Below, in pieces: positions 14,986-46,687 of a stretch of DNA of 64,000 nucleotides. The notes below the pieces were generated by a model. That model did no database searches. It was not told the DNA's origin and was given only the letters and a program-made list of their open reading frames with translations. The stretch is taken from contig NZ_AP021889.1 in assembly GCF_011398355.1 (NCBI RefSeq), positions 1,736,001 to 1,800,000 on the forward strand, read 5' to 3'. How positions within the stretch are numbered: position 1 is the stretch's first letter; each line of letters opens with the position of its first letter. The stretch comes from Thiosulfatimonas sediminis. Its GTDB lineage: Bacteria > Pseudomonadota > Gammaproteobacteria > Thiomicrospirales > Thiomicrospiraceae. Both the position numbers and the translations under genes were made by a program.

Positions 14986-17553
14986 TTAAAGCGCAACAAC
15001 TTGTGAATAGCTGCTCTTGGCCTTCACTTCAACGGCGATACCATCAAGCTTTTCTTTCGATGTGGCCGGTCTGACTTGGCCCCGTTCAATGGTAAAAACT
15101 TGTGCCGCTGGCATATCCGTATTCACAAACGATTTAAAGCGTTTGGTAAATTCCGGATTTTCAATCGCACGTTTCCAATCGCATTCATAACCCTCAATTA
15201 ACTGAGCCATTTGTGCCTCAAGTTGTTCACCGATTCCCAAAGAATCTTGCAATACAACTTGTTGCAAATATTCTAAACCGCCTTCCAAATTATCCATCCA
15301 AGTGGCGGTACGCTGCAAACGGTCGGCCGTTTTAATATAGAACATCAACAGACGATCGACGTATTTAAACACCTCTTCCTTGGACAGTTTCGTGGCAAAC
15401 AGATCCGCATGACGCGGTTTCATCCCGCCATTACCACAAACAAATAGGTTCCAACCTTCTTCGGTGGAAATTAAACCAATGTCTTTGGCTTGCGCTTCAG
15501 CACATTCACGAGTACATCCCGAAACGCCCATTTTTAATTTATGCGGTGAACGCAACCCTTTGTAGCGGTTTTCAATCTCTATCGCCATGGTGACTGAATC
15601 ATCTAAACCATAGCGACACCAAGTGGAACCAACACAAGATTTAACGGTACGCAACGATTTCGCATAAGCTTGCCCTGACTCAAAGCCAGCCGCAATAAGA
15701 TCTGTCCATATGGCCGGCAAATCGTTCATTTGTGCGCCAAATAAAACGATACGCTGGCCCCCGTTCACTTTCGTGTAAAGACTGAATTTTTTAGCCACTT
15801 CCCCTAACACAATCAATTTATCGGGCGTAATTTCCCCACCCGGAACACGAGGAATCACCGAATAGGTGCCGTCTTTCTGCATATTGCCTAGATAGTTGTC
15901 ATTCGTGTCTTGCAAAGGAATTTTATCTTGTTCTAAGGCATAGCTGTTCCACAAAGAGCCGAAAATGCTTCCCACAGCTTGTTTACAAACCGGACAACCA
16001 TGCCCTTTGCCGTGCGTGTGCAACAACGTATCAAAGGTTTTAATCTCTTCAACTTGACATAGATGGTATAACTCTTGACGCGAGTACGGGAAGTGTTCGC
16101 AGATGTCTTTACTGACCTCAACGCCACGTTTTTCCAGTTCATTATTCAACACATTGGTAACCAACTGCGTACAGCCACCGCAGCCGGTACAGGCTTGTGT
16201 GCAAGACTTAATATCCGCTAAACACATGGCACCAGCATTTACCGCGTTCACCACATCGCCTTTGGTCACATCATAACAAGAGCAAAGTTGTGCCGTTTCC
16301 GGCAAGGCATCAGGACCAAACAAAGCACCTGCTGAACCATCGCGATTTGGCAGTATTAGCCTATCCGGATGCTCTGGCAATTCCATATCATTCAATTTGA
16401 GTTGCAATAGATTACCGTAGTCATCACAGTCGCCGACCAACACAGCACCGAGCAATTTTTTGCCGTCTTTACTGACAACAATTTTTTTGTAAATTTCTTC
16501 TGGCCCGTTTTCATACACATAGCTTAAGGCTTCTTCGTCACTGCCATGAGGATCGCCAATGGAAGCCACATCAACCCCCATCAGTTTCAACTTGGTACTC
16601 ATATCAGCACCATCAAAACGGTTTTCCGTTAGATTCAATTGATCAACCACCACTTGCGCCATCGCATAACCAGGCGCAACCAATCCGTAAATCATGCCGT
16701 CGTGCAACGCACACTCGCCCACCGCAAAAATACTTGGGTCAGAGGTTTGGCAATGGGCATTAATCACAATCCCACCACGAGGCCCCATCTCTAAATCGGC
16801 TTGTTTCGCTAACTCATCTCGCGGACGAATCCCCGCGGAAAACAGCACAATATCGGTCTCTAAGGTTTGCCCATCCGCAAATTCCATTTTGTTAACACTG
16901 CCCTCACCGGCGCTAATCAATTGCGTCACTTTTGAGGTATGTACCTTTACCCCCAACTTTTGAATTTTACGTTTAAGCAGTGCCGCCCCACCTTCATCTA
17001 ACTGTACCGGCATCAAACGCGGTGCAAATTCAACCACGTGCGTTTCCAAACCAAGATCGCGCAACGCTTTAGCCGCTTCTAAACCAAGTAATCCGCCACC
17101 AACCACGGTGCCGATTTTGCCACTCTGAGCGGCCGCTTGAATCGCATCCAAATCTTCAATCGTGCGGTACACTAAACAACCGGCACGGTCATTTCCCGGA
17201 ATCGGCGGAACAAAGGGATAAGAACCGGTCGCCATCACTAAACGATCATAAGCCTGAACAAAACCGTCATCCGTGGTCACTGTTTTTGCCTGACGATCAA
17301 TACTGACAACTTTTGAATTGAGTCGAATTTCCACGCCGTTTTCTTCATAAAAACCAGGCTTAACCAAACTTAAATCATCGGCTGTTTTACCTGAAAAATA
17401 GGCCGACAGATAGACGCGATCATAGGCTTTGCGAGGTTCCTCGCCAAACACAATGATTTCATAATTTTGGCGCGCGGCGCTTTTCACTAATTTTTCCACA
17501 AAACTGTGGCCAACCATGCCGTTACCAATGACGATTATTTTTTGTTGTTGCAT
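14986..17553 (-). CDS. nirB: NAD(P)H nitrite reductase large subunit
   Basis: The 855-residue protein has the NirB layout. An N-terminal FAD/NAD oxidoreductase (IIVIGNGMVGHSF, then IGTVVGGGLLGLEAAKAL) is followed by a BFD-like [2Fe-2S] domain (CSCYDVTKGDVVNAV and CTQACTGCGGC). The C-terminal half is the ferredoxin-like sulfite/nitrite reductase domain, with TVKSCVGSTWCRYG (C-x5-C) and GVSGCTRECAEAQAKD (C-x3-C) ligating the 4Fe-4S/siroheme centre. It reduces nitrite to ammonium in the cytoplasm. AGGAG stands before the start. It is the last gene of the nitrate-assimilation operon. No nirD small-subunit gene follows, which is unusual. Confidence 0.95.
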   Translation of the reverse strand: MQQQKIIVIGNGMVGHSFVEKLVKSAARQNYEIIVFGEEPRKAYDRVYLSAYFSGKTADDLSLVKPGFYEENGVEIRLNSKVVSIDRQAKTVTTDDGFVQAYDRLVMATGSYPFVPPIPGNDRAGCLVYRTIEDLDAIQAAAQSGKIGTVVGGGLLGLEAAKALRDLGLETHVVEFAPRLMPVQLDEGGAALLKRKIQKLGVKVHTSKVTQLISAGEGSVNKMEFADGQTLETDIVLFSAGIRPRDELAKQADLEMGPRGGIVINAHCQTSDPSIFAVGECALHDGMIYGLVAPGYAMAQVVVDQLNLTENRFDGADMSTKLKLMGVDVASIGDPHGSDEEALSYVYENGPEEIYKKIVVSKDGKKLLGAVLVGDCDDYGNLLQLKLNDMELPEHPDRLILPNRDGSAGALFGPDALPETAQLCSCYDVTKGDVVNAVNAGAMCLADIKSCTQACTGCGGCTQLVTNVLNNELEKRGVEVSKDICEHFPYSRQELYHLCQVEEIKTFDTLLHTHGKGHGCPVCKQAVGSIFGSLWNSYALEQDKIPLQDTNDNYLGNMQKDGTYSVIPRVPGGEITPDKLIVLGEVAKKFSLYTKVNGGQRIVLFGAQMNDLPAIWTDLIAAGFESGQAYAKSLRTVKSCVGSTWCRYGLDDSVTMAIEIENRYKGLRSPHKLKMGVSGCTRECAEAQAKDIGLISTEEGWNLFVCGNGGMKPRHADLFATKLSKEEVFKYVDRLLMFYIKTADRLQRTATWMDNLEGGLEYLQQVVLQDSLGIGEQLEAQMAQLIEGYECDWKRAIENPEFTKRFKSFVNTDMPAAQVFTIERGQVRPATSKEKLDGIAVEVKAKSSYSQVVAL

Positions 17554-17576: not shown

Positions 17577-18824
17577 TTAAGCGACTGAATTAAATCCTTG
17601 TCCAAACAACAGCGTCTCTCTAATTGCGGAGACGTCTGTGGCTTGCTGTAATAATTCAAAAAACCAATTAGCGTCATAGGTATCGCCATACAGTAATGCG
17701 CCAACGATTTTGCTCTCTTCCAACACCAATTTACGGTATACACCCGCGTGCAAATCTTGAAAAACGAGTGTTTGAGATGCCTCAGACCCATTAAAATCGC
17801 CGGCAGAAAACAGCTCCACTCCCGTCACTTTCAATTTTGTTGCGGTTAACGAACCTTGATAAGCAACGTCATCATGGCCATTCAACACTTGCGCGAGTAC
17901 CTTGGCCTGTTCGTATAAAGGTGCCACCAATCCATACGTTTGCCCACGATGTTCAACACATTCGCCCAAAGCATAAATATGCGCGTCATTCGTCAGCAAC
18001 TGATCATCCACCACAATGCCGCGATTAACCGTTAAATCGGCCTGTACGGCGAGCTCGGTATGTGGACGAATCCCAATCGCCATCACCAATAAATCACACG
18101 CTATATGACGACCATCTTTCAACCGAACTGCGCTAATATGCGTACCGGCTTGGTTCGCAATAATCTCAACCACTTCGTTGCCCATATAAAACTGCATCCC
18201 ACTGCGCTCAGTGCCATCCGCTGACAGTTGGGCTTGTAACAAGGTTGCTGCAGGCTGATCAAGTTGCGCGTTCATTAAAATGTCACTGCGATGCACTACC
18301 GCCACTTGCATCGCGTATTTTTGCAGACCGTAAGCGGCCTCTAAACCCAATAAACCACCGCCAATAATCACGGCATTTTTTCCACCTTCGGCGGCTTTTT
18401 GAATTTTCTGAACATCGGCAATGTCACGAAAACTGACCACGCCAGCCAAATTCGTATTCTCAATAGATAAAACTAGTGGCTTGGCCCCAGTGGCAATCAC
18501 CAATTTGTCATACTCAAATACGGTGCCATCAGAGACCACAACGCACTGCTTTTGACGGTCTATCGCCACCACCGTTTTATCGGTATGCAGTTGAATACCT
18601 TGTTCCGCAAACCACGCTGGACTGTGCGTTATAATCTGCTCTAGGCTCTTTTCACCCGCCAACACGGGCGAGAGCATAATACGGTTGTAGCCGCCCTGCG
18701 CTTCGCGATTTAGCACGGTAATGTGGTAGGTGTCGCCCAGCGCCAAAAGCTCATCGAGCAAACGGGTGGCCGCCATACCTGCACCGATAACCAGCAATTT
18801 AGGCGCTCTAACAACGGCTGTCAT
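17577..18824 (-). CDS. FAD/NAD(P)-dependent oxidoreductase of the nitrate-assimilation operon
   Basis: The 415-residue protein is a rubredoxin-reductase-like flavoprotein, similar to the N-terminal reductase module of NirB. It has an FAD-binding GAGMAATRLLDEL near the start, a NAD-binding VIIGGGLLGLEAAYGL near residue 150 and IYALGECVEHRGQTYGLVAPL for the second FAD contact. It lacks the iron-sulfur and siroheme domains. In related nitrate-assimilation clusters such a protein (NasB-like) passes electrons from NAD(P)H to the assimilatory nitrate reductase. No nitrate reductase gene is in this window, so the partner is inferred. AGAGG lies 5 bases upstream of the second ATG, which I take as the start. 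It sits 23 bases before nirB. Confidence 0.85.
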   Translation of the reverse strand: MTAVVRAPKLLVIGAGMAATRLLDELLALGDTYHITVLNREAQGGYNRIMLSPVLAGEKSLEQIITHSPAWFAEQGIQLHTDKTVVAIDRQKQCVVVSDGTVFEYDKLVIATGAKPLVLSIENTNLAGVVSFRDIADVQKIQKAAEGGKNAVIIGGGLLGLEAAYGLQKYAMQVAVVHRSDILMNAQLDQPAATLLQAQLSADGTERSGMQFYMGNEVVEIIANQAGTHISAVRLKDGRHIACDLLVMAIGIRPHTELAVQADLTVNRGIVVDDQLLTNDAHIYALGECVEHRGQTYGLVAPLYEQAKVLAQVLNGHDDVAYQGSLTATKLKVTGVELFSAGDFNGSEASQTLVFQDLHAGVYRKLVLEESKIVGALLYGDTYDANWFFELLQQATDVSAIRETLLFGQGFNSVA

Positions 18825-18833
18825 CATCGCCTC

Positions 18834-19628
18834 TCAATGCTCTACTTTGCGCTGCTTTTCATACAGGAAACGCAGCACTTCAGAACGGTAATGGTTATAA
18901 GTCGGATCGTCAGCCAACGCCAAGCGATTACGCGGATGCGGTAAATCAATCTTTAGAATTTCACCAATCGTGGCCGCCGGACCATTGGTCATCATCACAA
19001 TGCGATCCGACAGCAGAACAGCCTCGTCCACATCATGGGTGATCATAATGACGGTGTTATTTAAAGTTTTCTGAATTTCCATCAGCGAATCCTGCAAATG
19101 CGCACGAGTCAAGGCATCCAGCGCCCCAAAAGGTTCATCCATCAGCATGATTTTTGGCTGCATCGCCAAGGCACGAGCAATCCCTACCCGCTGTTTCATA
19201 CCACCGGAAATCTCGTCTGGACGTTTATGCATGGCATGATCCATATGGACCAATTTTAAATTGTGTTCAATCCACGCCTTTTTTTCAGCCGGGGTTTTGC
19301 TTTTCTTAAAAACTTGGTCCACTGCCAACTCAACATTCTCGTAAGCACTTAACCACGGCAAGAGCGAATGGTTTTGGAAGACAACCGCACGCTCTGGCCC
19401 TGGAGAATCGACCTCTCGTCCAGCCAGTAAAACACCCCCTTCGGTTGCGCCATACAAACCGGCGACAATATTCAGAACGGTCGATTTACCACAACCGGAG
19501 TGTCCGATTAACGAGATAAATTCGCCCTCTTCAATTTTTAGATTAACGTCTTTTAATGCACGAAACGCGCCTTTGGGTGTCGGAAATTCAATGCCGACAC
19601 CAGTAAGTTCTAAATGAGTTTCTGACAT
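18834..19628 (-). CDS. nrtD: nitrate ABC transporter, ATP-binding protein
   Basis: The 264-residue ABC ATPase has Walker A GHSGCGKST, signature SGGMKQRVGIARALAM, Walker B KIMLMDEPFGALD and switch MITHDVDEAVLLSDRI. Close resemblance to the NrtD/SsuB/TauB group and its place directly after an nrtB-like permease identify it as energising nitrate uptake. It lacks the C-terminal binding-protein-like regulatory domain found in NrtC. It ends 10 bases before the flavoprotein start, so they are cotranscribed. Confidence 0.9.
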   Translation of the reverse strand: MSETHLELTGVGIEFPTPKGAFRALKDVNLKIEEGEFISLIGHSGCGKSTVLNIVAGLYGATEGGVLLAGREVDSPGPERAVVFQNHSLLPWLSAYENVELAVDQVFKKSKTPAEKKAWIEHNLKLVHMDHAMHKRPDEISGGMKQRVGIARALAMQPKIMLMDEPFGALDALTRAHLQDSLMEIQKTLNNTVIMITHDVDEAVLLSDRIVMMTNGPAATIGEILKIDLPHPRNRLALADDPTYNHYRSEVLRFLYEKQRKVEH

Positions 19629-19638
19629 CGATTTCTCC

Positions 19639-20637
19639 TTAACGTAAAGCGACAGATTTATCCCAAGAGACCGCGCCTTGGACCATTAACATCAAGCGAT
19701 CAAGAACAAAGCCCACTACACCGATAACCAATACAGCGACCATAATGCGCCCTAGTGAATCTGAGCTGCCGTTCTGGAATTCATCCCAAACAAACTTACC
19801 CAACCCTGGGTTTTGCGCCAACATCTCTGCGGCAATCAACACCATCCATGCAATTCCCAAAGAGATACGCAGACCAGTGAACATCATCGGAATCGAGCAT
19901 GGTAGAACGATTTTGCGAACGTGCGTCCACCAACTTAAGTTCAATACTTGACTGACGTTTTTCAAATCTTGCGTCACCGTGGCGACACCAGCCGCGGTGT
20001 TGATAATTGTCGGCCACAAACAGCACAACAGAACCGTAAACATCGAGTTTAAAAACGCTTTATCAAACATCGGGTCATCAGTAACATAGACCGCCGAAAC
20101 CACCATTGTTACCAACGGCAACCAAGCCAAAGGTGAGACCGGTTTAAAAAGCTGAATCAGTGGATTGACTGCCGCGTATACATTGCTACTAAGCCCAATC
20201 ACGATGCCAATCGGAATCGCTATAATCGATGCCAAAACAAACCCACTCATCACCGTAATCAAACTGCGCTCTATCTGCTCAAAAAAGGTTGGCGGACCAA
20301 CATAATCACGAATTTTCGGTTCATAATTCGGATCTTGCGCCATGCGTTCAGCATTGCGCTCATCCTGACGTTGATAAAATTCAGCCTCTTTTAGGGCTGC
20401 CGCTTGCGCTTCATCCGTTAAGGAAACAAACTGTTCAAATGTTTGTGCCGGCCCAGGAAATTGCCCAAGCGAGGTATTGATATGGCTAGACGCGCCTTGC
20501 CATAAGATTAAAAACAACACCAAACCGACCAATGGCAAACCTAACCCTTTTACGATTAGGCTAACTTGCCCCCTACGGTCTTCACCGATAATCAATTTAT
20601 GAAAAGGCTCAATCAAAGCCCACTTTAATGGATTCAT
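19639..20637 (-). CDS. nrtB: nitrate ABC transporter, permease protein
   Basis: The 332-residue protein has an N-terminal transmembrane helix (LPLVGLVLFLILW), a long polar periplasmic insert and then the BPD-type permease domain. The EAA loop appears around NTAAGVATVTQDLKNVSQVL, followed by LPCSIPMMFTGLRISLGIAWMVLIAAEML, which is diagnostic of NrtB/TauC/SsuC permeases. The residues FEQIERSLITVMSGFVLASI open the domain. It works with the neighbouring NrtA and NrtD proteins. Confidence 0.92.
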   Translation of the reverse strand: MNPLKWALIEPFHKLIIGEDRRGQVSLIVKGLGLPLVGLVLFLILWQGASSHINTSLGQFPGPAQTFEQFVSLTDEAQAAALKEAEFYQRQDERNAERMAQDPNYEPKIRDYVGPPTFFEQIERSLITVMSGFVLASIIAIPIGIVIGLSSNVYAAVNPLIQLFKPVSPLAWLPLVTMVVSAVYVTDDPMFDKAFLNSMFTVLLCCLWPTIINTAAGVATVTQDLKNVSQVLNLSWWTHVRKIVLPCSIPMMFTGLRISLGIAWMVLIAAEMLAQNPGLGKFVWDEFQNGSSDSLGRIMVAVLVIGVVGFVLDRLMLMVQGAVSWDKSVALR

Positions 20638-20709: not shown

Positions 20710-22083
20710 CTATGGCTTATCAGCCGCTTTCAAACCGATCTTCATACTGTTGATATAGGCATTTGGCTGGGTACCGTCATAAGCGATGCCATCCATAAAA
20801 TCCGTTTGCACACCACGATAACCATCACTTTGTAGCACTTCAGTAAACTCGCTCTGTTTGAATTTGCCCTCTTTGACTAACTCTGCAACAGCCAGTTTAT
20901 AAATATCCGGACGATAGACTTTTTTTGCCATATCCTTGTACCAATCATCCGACTGCTGCTCGGCAATTTGCCCCCAACGTCGCATTTGCGTCATGTACCA
21001 GATCGCATCCGAATAGTACGGATAAGTGGCGTTGTAACGGAAGAACACGTTGAAGTCAGGTTCAGAACGCTTATCTCCTTTTTCATACTCAAACGTCCCC
21101 GTCATCGAATTCGCGATCACCTCTGGATCCGCACCGACATAATTTGGTTTCGCCAGAATCTGCACCGCTTCACGACGATTTTTGTTGTTCTGTTCATCTA
21201 GCCAATGGGCTGCGCGAATCATCGCTTTGACCACTCGCACCGTGGTATTTGGGTATTTCTCGTAAAAGTCTTCGCGCAAACCGAACACCTTCTCTGGGTT
21301 ATTCTTTTGAATTGAATTATCGGAAATAACCGGCACACCAATGCCTTTAAAAACCGCTTGCTGATTCCAAGGCTCACCCACACAGTAGCCTTCAATTGTG
21401 CCGGCTTCCATAGTGGCCGGCATTTGTGGTGGTGGAGTTACCGAAAGTAAAACATCCGCTTTAATCGTGCCGGAGGTATCGCCATTCGACGGATCATAGA
21501 ACCCAGGATTTAAACCACCGGCAGCGAGCCAATAACGCAACTCATAGTTATGCGTGGAAACCGGAAACACCATGCCCATCTTGAACGGCTTGCCCGCATC
21601 TTTATAGGATTTAACCACTGGCGCCAAAGCGCTTGCAGAAATCGGATGGATCGGCTTGCCATCTTGCATAGGCACATTCGGTTTCATCGCGGCCCACGCC
21701 TTATTCGAAACGGTAATTGCATTGCCGTTTAAATCCATCGAAATTGGCGTAATGACATTGGATTTGGTGCCATACCCCAAGGTGGCTGCAATCGGCTGTC
21801 CAGCTAACATGTGCGCGCCATCCAACTGACCGTCAATCACGCGGTCTAACAACACCTTCCAATTGGCTTGTGCTTCCAATTTGACATACAAACCTTCGTC
21901 TTCAAAAAAGCCCTTTTCATAGGCAATCGCTAATGGCGCCATGTCGGTGAGTTTGATAAATCCAAATTTAAGTTCTTCTTTTTCCGGATAACCGACAGCG
22001 TACGCACTGGTCGAGCCTATTGCGGTTGCCATGGCCATGGATAGAAGTGTCTTTTTGATTAATGTTCGGCGATTTAATTGCAT
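20710..22083 (-). CDS. nrtA: nitrate ABC transporter, substrate-binding protein
   Basis: The 457-residue protein has a twin-arginine-like signal (NRRTLIKKTLLSMAMATAIG...AYA) and a NrtA/SsuA-type binding domain. Recognisable stretches are LKFGFIKLTDMAPLAIAYEKGFFEDEGL, LDRVIDGQLDGAHMLAGQPIAAT, FPVSTHNYELRYWLAAGGLNPG and EAGTIEGYCVGEPWNQQAV. It captures nitrate or nitrite in the periplasm and delivers it to NrtB. Its 5' leader contains a terminator and an ANTAR-type hairpin, so its expression is probably controlled by the NasR-like protein encoded just upstream. Confidence 0.93.
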   Translation of the reverse strand: MQLNRRTLIKKTLLSMAMATAIGSTSAYAVGYPEKEELKFGFIKLTDMAPLAIAYEKGFFEDEGLYVKLEAQANWKVLLDRVIDGQLDGAHMLAGQPIAATLGYGTKSNVITPISMDLNGNAITVSNKAWAAMKPNVPMQDGKPIHPISASALAPVVKSYKDAGKPFKMGMVFPVSTHNYELRYWLAAGGLNPGFYDPSNGDTSGTIKADVLLSVTPPPQMPATMEAGTIEGYCVGEPWNQQAVFKGIGVPVISDNSIQKNNPEKVFGLREDFYEKYPNTTVRVVKAMIRAAHWLDEQNNKNRREAVQILAKPNYVGADPEVIANSMTGTFEYEKGDKRSEPDFNVFFRYNATYPYYSDAIWYMTQMRRWGQIAEQQSDDWYKDMAKKVYRPDIYKLAVAELVKEGKFKQSEFTEVLQSDGYRGVQTDFMDGIAYDGTQPNAYINSMKIGLKAADKP

Positions 22084-22122
22084 CGTAAAAACCTCTTAGC
22101 TGGTAGCGGTAGTAAATTTGGC

Positions 22123-22171
22123 AAAAAAAAACGCCCACTCCCTTCCCGCTTCGCGAAAAAAGAGTGAGCGT
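22123..22171 (-). terminator. leader terminator upstream of nrtA (attenuator)
   Basis: On the minus strand ACGCTCACTC pairs with GAGTGGGCGT (10 bp, one G-U), followed by nine T. It lies 40-90 bases before the nrtA start codon, inside the leader rather than behind a gene. It would stop transcription of the nitrate operon unless antiterminated. Confidence 0.85.
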
Positions 22172-22180
22172 CTTTGCTCA
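22165..22180 (-). promoter_or_regulatory. ANTAR-type hexaloop hairpin (antiterminator P2 candidate)
   Basis: On the minus strand TGAGC-AAAGAC-GCTCA forms a 5-bp stem with a hexanucleotide loop having A at position 1 and G at position 4, the two bases conserved in RNA hairpins bound by ANTAR domains. Its 3' strand is part of the 5' arm of the leader terminator, so the two structures exclude each other. The upstream partner hairpin (P1) is not clear in the AT-rich sequence. Confidence 0.7.
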
Positions 22181-22334
22181 ATAAATTTACTACTTATTAA
22201 CTAGATACAGGCCAAAAAAATATAAAAACTTAAATATCAATAAGTTAAGTTATTTTAAATCATTTAATAGACTGCCAACAGCCGGTCACTGCACCAATAG
22301 TTAAGTACCAATGCACCACAAAATCCAGTTTGAC

Positions 22335-23543
22335 CTATTTCTCAATCAACTGTTTGGCTAAATCAATTAAGCGCATCCCCTGCTGCATGGCAGCTTGCTG
22401 CATTTTACGGTGCGCCGCTTCTTCACTTAGCCCTAACTGCTTCATAATTTTGGCTTTGGCTTGTTGAATCACCCGCTGTTCTAAGAGAGTCTGTTTACTG
22501 GCGGTCAAGGCTTGCTGAGTCTGTTTAAGATCTTTTCCCTGCTGGTTCAACTTATCCATCAACATCGAGGTCGCACTGCTGGCCGCACCAATCACGATAG
22601 CGCGCTCTTGAATATTGTCGGCAATCCAACGCTGGTCTTGATTCAACAACTGGTCCGCTTGATGCAACGCTTTTGCACTGTACAACTGCAACAATTGAAT
22701 TAAGCACTCCTCAATCTTTTGAATCGCCTCAATCCGCAAAGTGCAAGCAGCAAACCACTGTTGCGCTTGCTCAACGCCCAATAACGCTTCGTTTTCAAAA
22801 GCGTTGCGTAAAACAGTTAAACCCTGTTCTTGCTTTACGGCTTGATAAGCCGCAGCGGTCTCTGGCGGCGCAAAGTCCTCAAAACTACTGAAATAGTAGT
22901 GCTGCATATCAATCAAACCTTGGCGCTGCTCAGCTAATTCCTTATCCCTAATCAAACCTGAAGCGATGATATAAGTACCGTAAGCACGCTCTTGACCGGC
23001 GAGCTCTTTGGCATTGAGAATCTGAATTAAGGCCACCATCAACTTCGCGATTTTGGGCTCTTGGGTTAACTCAGTCATCTCAACAATGACACTGAGTAAA
23101 TCCTTAATCACCGCACTGATCGCTTTGGCCGCCTGTAAGGATGAAATCGCACGCGCGTCAATCTCGCGGCGCACTTGAAACAATGGCTGATCTAACGACT
23201 CCAACGCCTTAGCCAAACTAATAAACACACCACCGGCCAGAATCTTACCTTCGCACTCTTCAATCCATTTTTGCAGTAGCAAATTAAACGCGGCATGCTC
23301 TTCACAAAACGCTTTGCGATAGACTCGGTAATTAATATCATCCGGTAGCGTTTGCTCTTCCACCAAAAACAAGACGCTCGAGCCGCGTTCAAGTTGAAGG
23401 TAGTGCATCATTTTGCGCAAGTGCGCAATCAACTGTGACAACTCAAACAAAACTTGCAACGAGTGAATCTCGGCTCGTTTGGAAGCGAGCCACAGTTTGG
23501 CGATATTTTCGGCTAATGGCATTTCGTTAGACATAACCATCAC
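22335..23543 (-). CDS. nasR: NasR-like nitrate sensor and transcription antiterminator (NIT + ANTAR)
   Basis: The 402-residue protein is helical. Residues from about 40 to 290 fit the nitrate- and nitrite-sensing NIT domain: HYLQLERGSSVLFL near the start, then ELAGQERAYGTYIIASG, matching the RG.. and QERA motifs of NasR. The C-terminal ~70 residues are an ANTAR domain (VIQQAKAKIMKQLGLSEEAAHRKMQQAAM), which binds paired RNA hairpins. In Klebsiella, NasR with nitrate prevents termination in the nasF leader. A matching leader is present here before nrtA. The start overlaps the stop of the thioredoxin gene (ATGA). Confidence 0.9.
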   Translation of the reverse strand: MMVMSNEMPLAENIAKLWLASKRAEIHSLQVLFELSQLIAHLRKMMHYLQLERGSSVLFLVEEQTLPDDINYRVYRKAFCEEHAAFNLLLQKWIEECEGKILAGGVFISLAKALESLDQPLFQVRREIDARAISSLQAAKAISAVIKDLLSVIVEMTELTQEPKIAKLMVALIQILNAKELAGQERAYGTYIIASGLIRDKELAEQRQGLIDMQHYYFSSFEDFAPPETAAAYQAVKQEQGLTVLRNAFENEALLGVEQAQQWFAACTLRIEAIQKIEECLIQLLQLYSAKALHQADQLLNQDQRWIADNIQERAIVIGAASSATSMLMDKLNQQGKDLKQTQQALTASKQTLLEQRVIQQAKAKIMKQLGLSEEAAHRKMQQAAMQQGMRLIDLAKQLIEK

Positions 23544-23875
23544 ACTTCATTAAATAACATGCCATAAGGACGCTGAATGTCATTCATCAATTTACCGATA
23601 CTGAAACTACGAACTTCTTCAATAAATTTCTGGCCAGTAAAATAAATCTGTACCACCGGCAGACTGAAAATACCATTCTGCGAACAAATCTCGGTGGTTT
23701 TGTGACAATCCACATAGACCATCTGCATTTTTGGGTAGCGCGCGCTAATCTGCTCGATAATTTGCGGCTTGATCACATGACAAACATTACACTCGCTGCC
23801 GCCGTACAACACCAACAACGCCTCCGCTTCGTATTGTAAGCTTTGCAACTCTTCTAAGGTGATGACGTCTTTCAC
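23540..23875 (-). CDS. small thioredoxin-fold protein
   Basis: The 111-residue cytoplasmic protein has the thioredoxin pattern LLVLYGGSECNVCHVIKPQI, with redox pair CNVC, then MQMVYVDCHK and the cis-Pro loop GIFSLPVVQIYFTGQ. No signal peptide is present. It overlaps nasR by 4 bases and follows the ROK kinase by 9 bases, so the three are one operon. A redox link to nitrate sensing or reduction is possible but not shown. Confidence 0.8.
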   Translation of the reverse strand: MKDVITLEELQSLQYEAEALLVLYGGSECNVCHVIKPQIIEQISARYPKMQMVYVDCHKTTEICSQNGIFSLPVVQIYFTGQKFIEEVRSFSIGKLMNDIQRPYGMLFNEV

Positions 23876-46330: not shown

Positions 46331-46687
46331 GGGGCTGTACTGGTTTCGACGGGGAGTTCAAAGTTTAAAATGCATGTCGTGCCTGAATGATGCACGTAAA
46401 TCTTTATTTCACTTTTGTTATAGTTGCAAACGACGATAACTACGCTCTAGCGGCTTAATCCCGCTAGTGCAGGCTAGACCAGTTGCCTTTGGCCCCTAGC
46501 CTGTATCGACTTACAAAGGATCGTGTATGCCGCGTGCTTGGGTGGCCGTCACTAAACTTAACAAACTCGCTTGATGTGATCCCTGCTGGTCGGGCAACAT
46601 TTAAGTTAAATGAATAGACCAAATAAACATGTAGATTTTTAGATGGCGGCTTTGCGGACGGGGGTTCGACTCCCCCCAGCTCCACCA
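46331..46687 (+). ncRNA. ssrA: transfer-messenger RNA (tmRNA, ssrA)
   Basis: The 5' end GGGGCTGTACTGGTTTCGACG and the 3' end GGTTCGACTCCCCCCAGC with TCCACCA form the tRNA-like acceptor and T arm. The tag reading frame at 46426-46458 starts at GCA and encodes ANDDNYALAA before TAA, ending in the usual ALAA degradation signal. About 357 bases long and one-piece. It rescues stalled ribosomes with SmpB. CCA is encoded. Confidence 0.97.

Follow-up and report, generated by a model that had tools for sequence, protein, structure and literature searches.

In the nasR-nasF system of Klebsiella, the leader RNA contains two hairpins, P1 and P2, of which P1 is reported to be essential (PMC3369936). NasR is reported to bind P2 alone at approximately 12 µM, compared with 1 µM for both hairpins (PMC7496416), so that binding to one hairpin is possible. 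The model of 2012 is a two-hairpin model and its search for ANTAR targets required two hairpins; the Enterococcus eut leaders, on which EutV acts, are described in the same source as having two, with a linker of 5-12 nt (PMC3369931). According to the account of the 2022 structure, the minimal binding site is a single hexaloop, yet two are needed for read-through, and termination is prevented only if the ANTAR dimer contacts both, one after the other (PMC8934654). In the NasS-NasT systems, with a receiver-ANTAR regulator, nitrate genes likewise stand behind leaders with hexaloops that contain A at position 1 and G at position 4 (A1/G4).

Here, we describe a leader in Thiosulfatimonas sediminis, which belongs to a sulfur-oxidising group; the leader is very probably, judging by its sequence, a NasR-type nitrate antitermination leader. 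It very probably works like the NasR leader, but we class it as a variant and not as an ordinary example, since it is without the feature reported to be essential elsewhere. The window, which is the whole stretch of 64,000 nucleotides that was analysed, contains the leader between the end of a NIT-ANTAR gene (22335) and the ATG of nrtA (22083), both on the minus strand. The genes are as follows:

22335..23543, minus strand: nasR-like gene, 402 aa, NIT nitrate/nitrite sensor and C-terminal ANTAR RNA-binding domain (Pfam NIT 119.6 bits, ANTAR 47.7 bits)
20710..22083, minus strand: nrtA-like, substrate-binding protein of a nitrate ABC transporter, first in the operon (NMT1_2, 327 bits)
19639..20637, minus strand: nrtB-like permease (best NCBIfam match ntrB, 165 bits, under the family cut-off of 209)
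18834..19628, minus strand: nrtD-like ATPase (NCBIfam ntrCD, 350.7 bits, above the cut-off)
17577..18827, minus strand: NAD(P)H flavoprotein, like the N-terminal half of NirB (domain and family matches)
14986..17553, minus strand: nirB, nitrite reductase large subunit (NCBIfam PRK14989, 1320 bits)

Two features of NasR-type leaders are present in this arrangement: a NIT-ANTAR regulator gene adjoins the leader, and nitrate assimilation genes stand downstream of it. The locus in Klebsiella pneumoniae also has nasR followed by an nrtA-like gene. Pfam recovered both of the domains that the first-pass annotation had assigned to the protein encoded directly upstream, and this protein is the sole ANTAR protein found in the genome. 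It differs in domain structure from the receiver-ANTAR regulators of the eut and NasS-NasT systems. The leader is present in a single copy in the genome, and a repeat or mobile element was rejected on this basis. Similar DNA was found in 39 plasmid records at 60-80% identity, covering the nrtA-nrtB part where shown. Elsewhere in the window, a thioredoxin-like gene with a CNVC motif (23540-23875, minus strand) shares 4 nt with the start of the nasR-like gene, and a tmRNA gene is located at 46331-46687 on the plus strand (193.4 bits). In genome G048, an orphan homolog of the thioredoxin-like gene (L152) has a short terminator downstream of it that contains a P2-like hexaloop.

Hairpins, terminator and candidate promoter of the leader

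The elements identified in the leader are the following:

22313..22318, minus strand: first TGGTGC box, possible half-site of an NtrC-type activator (enriched in the family leaders compared with shuffles)
22291..22296, minus strand: second TGGTGC box, 22 bp from the first (enriched in the same way)
22198..22215, minus strand: possible sigma54 -24/-12 promoter, TTGGCCTGTATCTAGTTA, with GT instead of GC at -12 (score 11.9, reached by 128 of 2000 shuffles; weak alone)
22188, minus strand: transcription start inferred from the sigma54 spacing rule, 8 nt upstream of P2
22165..22180, minus strand: P2 antiterminator hairpin, TGAGC[AAAGAC]GCTCA, with an A1 and G4 hexaloop (sequence, folding and covariation)
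22131..22171, minus strand: stem-loop of an intrinsic terminator with 19 contiguous pairs, which cannot coexist with P2 (terminator scan, folding and covariation)
22123..22131, minus strand: run of nine T, the first of which is also in the stem (sequence)
22109..22193, no strand: long imperfect dyad that encloses the terminator, with arms of 41 nt and an outer pair of 11 bp, GTAGTAAATTT / AAATTTACTAC

The hexaloop hairpin reported in the first-pass annotation, with its A1, its G4 and its overlap with the 5' arm of the terminator, was confirmed at 22180-22165 (TGAGC 22180-22176, AAAGAC 22175-22170 and GCTCA 22169-22165, with a C:G closing pair). The 3' arm of P2 is also the start of the 5' arm of the terminator, another feature of NasR-type leaders. 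The terminator and its nine T also stood, but the length of 10 bp given for it was an undercount, as the arms (22171-22153 and 22149-22131, loop GAA) form 19 contiguous pairs. Including the G-U pairs, the stem has a folding energy of -27.7 kcal/mol, which was equalled by none of 200 shuffles, and it was also listed by a separate terminator scan. The outer 11-bp pair of the dyad overlaps the inferred transcription start and is not present in the same form in the two nearest relatives, Thiomicrorhabdus marina (L004) and Hydrogenovibrio sp. SC-1 (L005). No Rfam model matched the leader at its gathering score; two microRNA models, caused by the long hairpin, scored far under theirs.

A hexaloop of the A1/G4 type overlapping a terminator is shared with the Klebsiella locus, which has a strong sigma54-like promoter where the window has a weak candidate, and a hairpin of this type that excludes the terminator is shared with the Enterococcus eut leaders. 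The difference lies upstream of P2. Under a strict rule for P1 (A1, G4, a C:G closing pair and at least three pairs, within 90 nt), the Klebsiella control contains the hairpin CGAACC[AATGGC]GGTTCG 9 nt before P2, whereas P1 is absent in the window. In a wider set, 14 of 31 leaders contain a strict P1, including L007, L009 and L010 (Thiomicrospira microaerophila) within the family. The window, L004 and L005 contain no C:G-closed A1/G4 hexaloop with at least three pairs anywhere between nasR and P2, and the dual-hexaloop ANTAR RNA motif, two such hairpins with a short linker, is not present in the window leader, which in this respect also differs from the leaders of the eut and NasS-NasT systems. 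If any closing pair is allowed, the window has one A1/G4 hexaloop with at least three pairs, CAGTG[ACCGGC]TGTTG, located 95 nt from P2 and including three G-U pairs. Under the same relaxation, L004 has two, at 157 and 76 nt from P2, and L005 has one at 103 nt and a second, AAA[ATTGAA]TTT, at 1 nt, none of them with G-C pairs. The doubt about P1 voiced in the first-pass annotation was borne out, as none was found in the whole leader.

The NasR-like proteins of the window, L004 and L005 form one clade with 100/100 support in trees of 31 and 30 proteins, the smaller set omitting L044, which was translated in the wrong frame. The single-hexaloop clade comprises three genomes only. The loss of P1 is not unique to this clade: a strict P1 is also missing from 14 other leaders, among them those of Thiomicrospira (L006, L011-L013) and Rheinheimera (L058, L059). 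In four of the 14 (L055, L063, L071 and L174), an A1/G4 hexaloop is closed by a different pair. What makes the window's clade the extreme case is that there is seemingly no room for P1. Shuffles of these AT-rich leaders contained a C:G-closed P1 in 0 of 1000 cases, so that its absence alone is not improbable; what matters is the lack of an element that is otherwise conserved. No description of a P2-only leader was found in the open-licence papers that were searched.

The transcription start was placed by the fixed spacing that separates it from the -24/-12 element of sigma54 promoters. Each of the 27 leaders scored has a candidate -24/-12 element ahead of P2. In 24 of them, the element was reached by at most 26 of 2000 shuffles, the exceptions being L006 (67 of 2000), the window (128 of 2000) and L004 (score 9.9, 550 of 2000). 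The element in L005 has a score of 13.4 and was reached by 5 of 2000 shuffles. The implied distance from the start to P2 is 8 nt in the window, 12 nt in L004 and 13 nt in L005, and at least 22 nt at the other 24 places; the likely distance in the Klebsiella locus is 48 nt, compared with approximately 8 nt in the window. The absence of P1 is independent of the promoter assignment. Further upstream, the TGGTGC box occurs 21 times in the 12 family leaders, always on the coding strand (0.74 expected from shuffles), and the boxes are 21 or 22 bp apart in six of the nine leaders with two. We take these boxes to fit the sites of an NtrC-type activator, and the genome encodes both ntrC (666 bits, above the cut-off) and rpoN.

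It is unlikely, although it deserves more weight than the other alternatives, that the leader is an ordinary dual-hairpin NasR leader with an odd P1, for example AACTTA-TTGATATT-TAAGTT, which would be included in the RNA if transcription began further upstream or read through from nasR. The 14 related leaders with a strict P1, the four more with another closing pair and the sigma54 element of the window, which is weak alone, are consistent with this explanation, as are a sigma70-like pair at 22248-22219 and the fact that read-through from nasR would cover the whole gap. However, a single sigma70-like pair was found where the shuffle mean was 1.0, so that such pairs are equally frequent in shuffles, and the one A1/G4 hexaloop upstream in the window lies 95 nt from P2 and has three G-U pairs in its stem. 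The AACTTA/TAAGTT pairing that the first-pass annotation had pointed out exists (22246-22241 and 22232-22227) and encloses 8 nt, as it had said; it was rejected as a P1 as the loop is not a hexaloop. The pairing lies upstream of the likely promoter.

Conservation and co-occurrence with NIT-ANTAR genes

To place the overlap of the hairpin and the terminator against chance, we used a scan pattern consisting of an A1/G4 hexaloop with a stem of at least four pairs, the 3' arm of which is partly shared with a terminator that has a T run. It was found at one place on the two strands of the 64-kb window, even at a laxer terminator score of 15, and once in 2.57 Mb strand-bases of dinucleotide-shuffled DNA at a score of 18. 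The overlap is more than chance. A scan of 85 related loci returned 24 places in 23 loci; the pattern was present in 23 of the 35 loci in which the match covered both NIT and ANTAR, compared with none of the 50 control loci in which the match ended at or before residue 300, in the NIT part. The scan allows one G-U pair and missed some true cases, such as L060, which was found by the covariance model R1 described below. Among ten further loci of the class (L125-L134), three were found by the scan and three more, which had not gone into the model, by R1 (38.8-41.3 bits); neither method found anything in L128, L130, L131 and L132, for which the flanks are only 1.5 kb.

The NIT-ANTAR gene is present in 12 of the 62 genomes of the family. 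In all 12 loci, the order is nasR, an intergenic leader and an nrtA-like gene, and the gene downstream of the leader belongs to NMT1_2, the family that includes NrtA. The A1/G4 rule holds in 11 of the 12 leaders; the twelfth, in G021, has U at loop position 1 and scores 24.8 bits with R1. The first-pass annotation had made its reading depend on conservation of the hexaloop and the terminator in related genomes, and the two are kept in the 12 family loci and in the nasR locus of Klebsiella pneumoniae.

R1 was built on an alignment, A3, of 23 of the 27 places (L013, L050, L063 and the second place in L071 were left out). The window leader scores 52.9 bits but is itself part of the model, so its own match proves nothing by itself. 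Outside the model, R1 identified the leaders of Klebsiella pneumoniae (35.3 bits), Pantoea dispersa (37.0 bits) and Ideonella (45.3 bits), and gave no match in the Azospirillum locus L173. Among the 12 NIT-ANTAR loci missed by the first scan, it gave matches in nine, seven of which were weak (E 0.28); L043, L047 and L052 gave none. Scores above 30 bits were obtained in 11 of the 12 NIT-ANTAR genomes of the family, where the matches are leaders that went into the model or a near copy of one, and in three of the 50 family genomes without a NIT-ANTAR gene, all three of which have other ANTAR proteins. In the genome of the window, R1 finds one site, based on 90 of 686 first-look candidates that were scored, so that others could be missed. 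The two molybdopterin oxidoreductase genes of this genome (G000:C1, 1717703-1718953 and 1882742-1883782) are both located outside the operon, and the R1 match near the first of them (L169) scores no better than chance (13.7 bits, E 0.23).

The 23 aligned leaders show covariation in both helices. In the terminator helix, 7 of 12 pairs changed on both sides, which was reached by 1 of 500 shuffles, and in the P2 helix this was the case for 3 of 4 pairs, reached by 7 of 500 shuffles. One 3' arm thus covaries with each of two partners, which is what a pair of mutually exclusive structures should produce. Entry into A3 required that the scan found both P2 and the terminator, so that the covariation leans towards these structures, and the proportion of paired cells cannot serve as independent evidence since the sequences were chosen in this way. 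The window, L004 and L005 have GAG./GCTC in the P2 stem, compared with GGA./GTCC in 18 of the other 20 aligned leaders, which is a compensated change.

These data also bear on the explanation that the stem-loop is a constitutive terminator that ends nasR, with a hexaloop because bidirectional terminators often carry AAAGGCG/CGCCTTT. The great strength of the terminator fits with this explanation, and so does the P2-like terminator after the orphan thioredoxin-like gene in G048 (32.1 bits), a genome in which no NIT-ANTAR gene was found, which indicates that such shapes can arise elsewhere. We nevertheless consider it very unlikely, as the P2 stem shows covariation just as the terminator stem does, the pattern follows the NIT-ANTAR loci rather than the control loci, and it recurs inside the operon in G053 and G052, where a terminator for nasR makes no sense. 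In these two genomes (L163 in G053 and L164 in G052), a second leader of the P2/terminator type, preceded by a strong sigma54-like promoter of its own, is located between the ABC ATPase and flavoprotein genes; in the window, the two genes are 6 nt apart and there is no second leader.

Two family genomes without a NIT-ANTAR gene, G001 and G004, have dual-hexaloop leaders (L149, L150 and L165; P1 loops AACGAA and AATGAT) that precede molybdopterin oxidoreductase, sirohaem-synthase-type and nrtA-like genes. They encode short ANTAR proteins of 198 and 207 aa, respectively, of which the one in G004 consists of a receiver and an ANTAR domain and is encoded close to the nrtA-like gene with a dual-hexaloop leader. 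G004 presumably uses NasT.

The NasR-like protein and the proposed mechanism

A profile of the NasR-like family matches the solved nitrate regulatory protein 4akk, which we take to be Klebsiella NasR, with an E-value of 5.9e-64. The GQER motif of the NIT domain is invariant in the 12 family proteins and is also present in 4akk. By our mapping, this motif would hold E175 and R176, which are predicted to belong to the nitrate pocket (PMC7496416).

In the ANTAR domain, the residue that matches R142 of EutV, by alignment and an inferred numbering offset of two, is Gln356 in the window and Gln in L004 and L005, compared with Arg in the nine other family members. EutV R142 is reported to contact P2, and its change to Ala to cut the affinity eight-fold (PMC8934654). 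Lysines at positions 340, 368 and 380 are present in the window, L004 and L005 and in none of the nine others, and may compensate. Among 30 NIT-ANTAR proteins, none of the 8 without this Arg is associated with a strict P1, compared with 14 of the 22 that have it, although in two of these 8 a hexaloop is closed by a different pair and counts as a P1 under the relaxed rule. The association of Arg 356 with P1 gives Fisher p-values of 0.0027 (strict) and 0.034 (relaxed), both of which ignore phylogeny; it amounts to about three independent changes, a number too small for a test that takes phylogeny into account, and was seen after the fact.

That control was lost with P1, that NasR no longer acts and that the decaying attenuator merely lowers expression through its terminator is the least probable explanation, since in the clade that has lost both P1 and the Arg, and whose ANTAR scores (49.3-52.5 bits) are below those of all other NIT-ANTAR proteins among the family's 12 (56.8-62.1 bits), the P2 stem, A1, G4 and the overlap are nevertheless kept in all three leaders, with compensated stem changes, despite identities of 57 and 44% between the relatives' proteins and that of the window.

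In line with the first-pass annotation, our preferred reading of the leader is that of a NasR-type nitrate-responsive attenuator for nrtA-nrtB-nrtD-flavoprotein-nirB, which probably works with one hexaloop rather than two. Under nitrogen limitation, the sigma54 promoter with its NtrC-type boxes would start transcription approximately 8 nt before P2. Without nitrate, the RNA is computed to fold into the 19-pair terminator, and a transcript of approximately 66 nt would end in the T run. In the presence of nitrate or nitrite, by analogy with Klebsiella NasR, the NIT domain would release the ANTAR domains of the NasR-like dimer, and the freed domains would bind the AAAGAC hexaloop of the emerging P2. 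With GCTCA held in P2, the terminator could not form. As no P1 of the known kind was found by the scan, a P2-only leader would have to manage without a loading step.

The chances seem evenly balanced that, in the lineage of the window, L004 and L005, the attenuator was reduced to a single hexaloop, placed right where a sigma54 transcript begins, and that the ANTAR dimer changed with it. If this is true, the second hairpin would be a loading aid that evolution can drop, and not part of the switch itself. The 2012 model and the 2022 structure leave room for either view on whether an ANTAR dimer needs both hexaloops or one at a time. With a natural leader that lacks P1, the question of one versus two hexaloops becomes testable in vitro, with near relatives that have P1 as controls, and a single-hexaloop leader would widen the searches for ANTAR targets.
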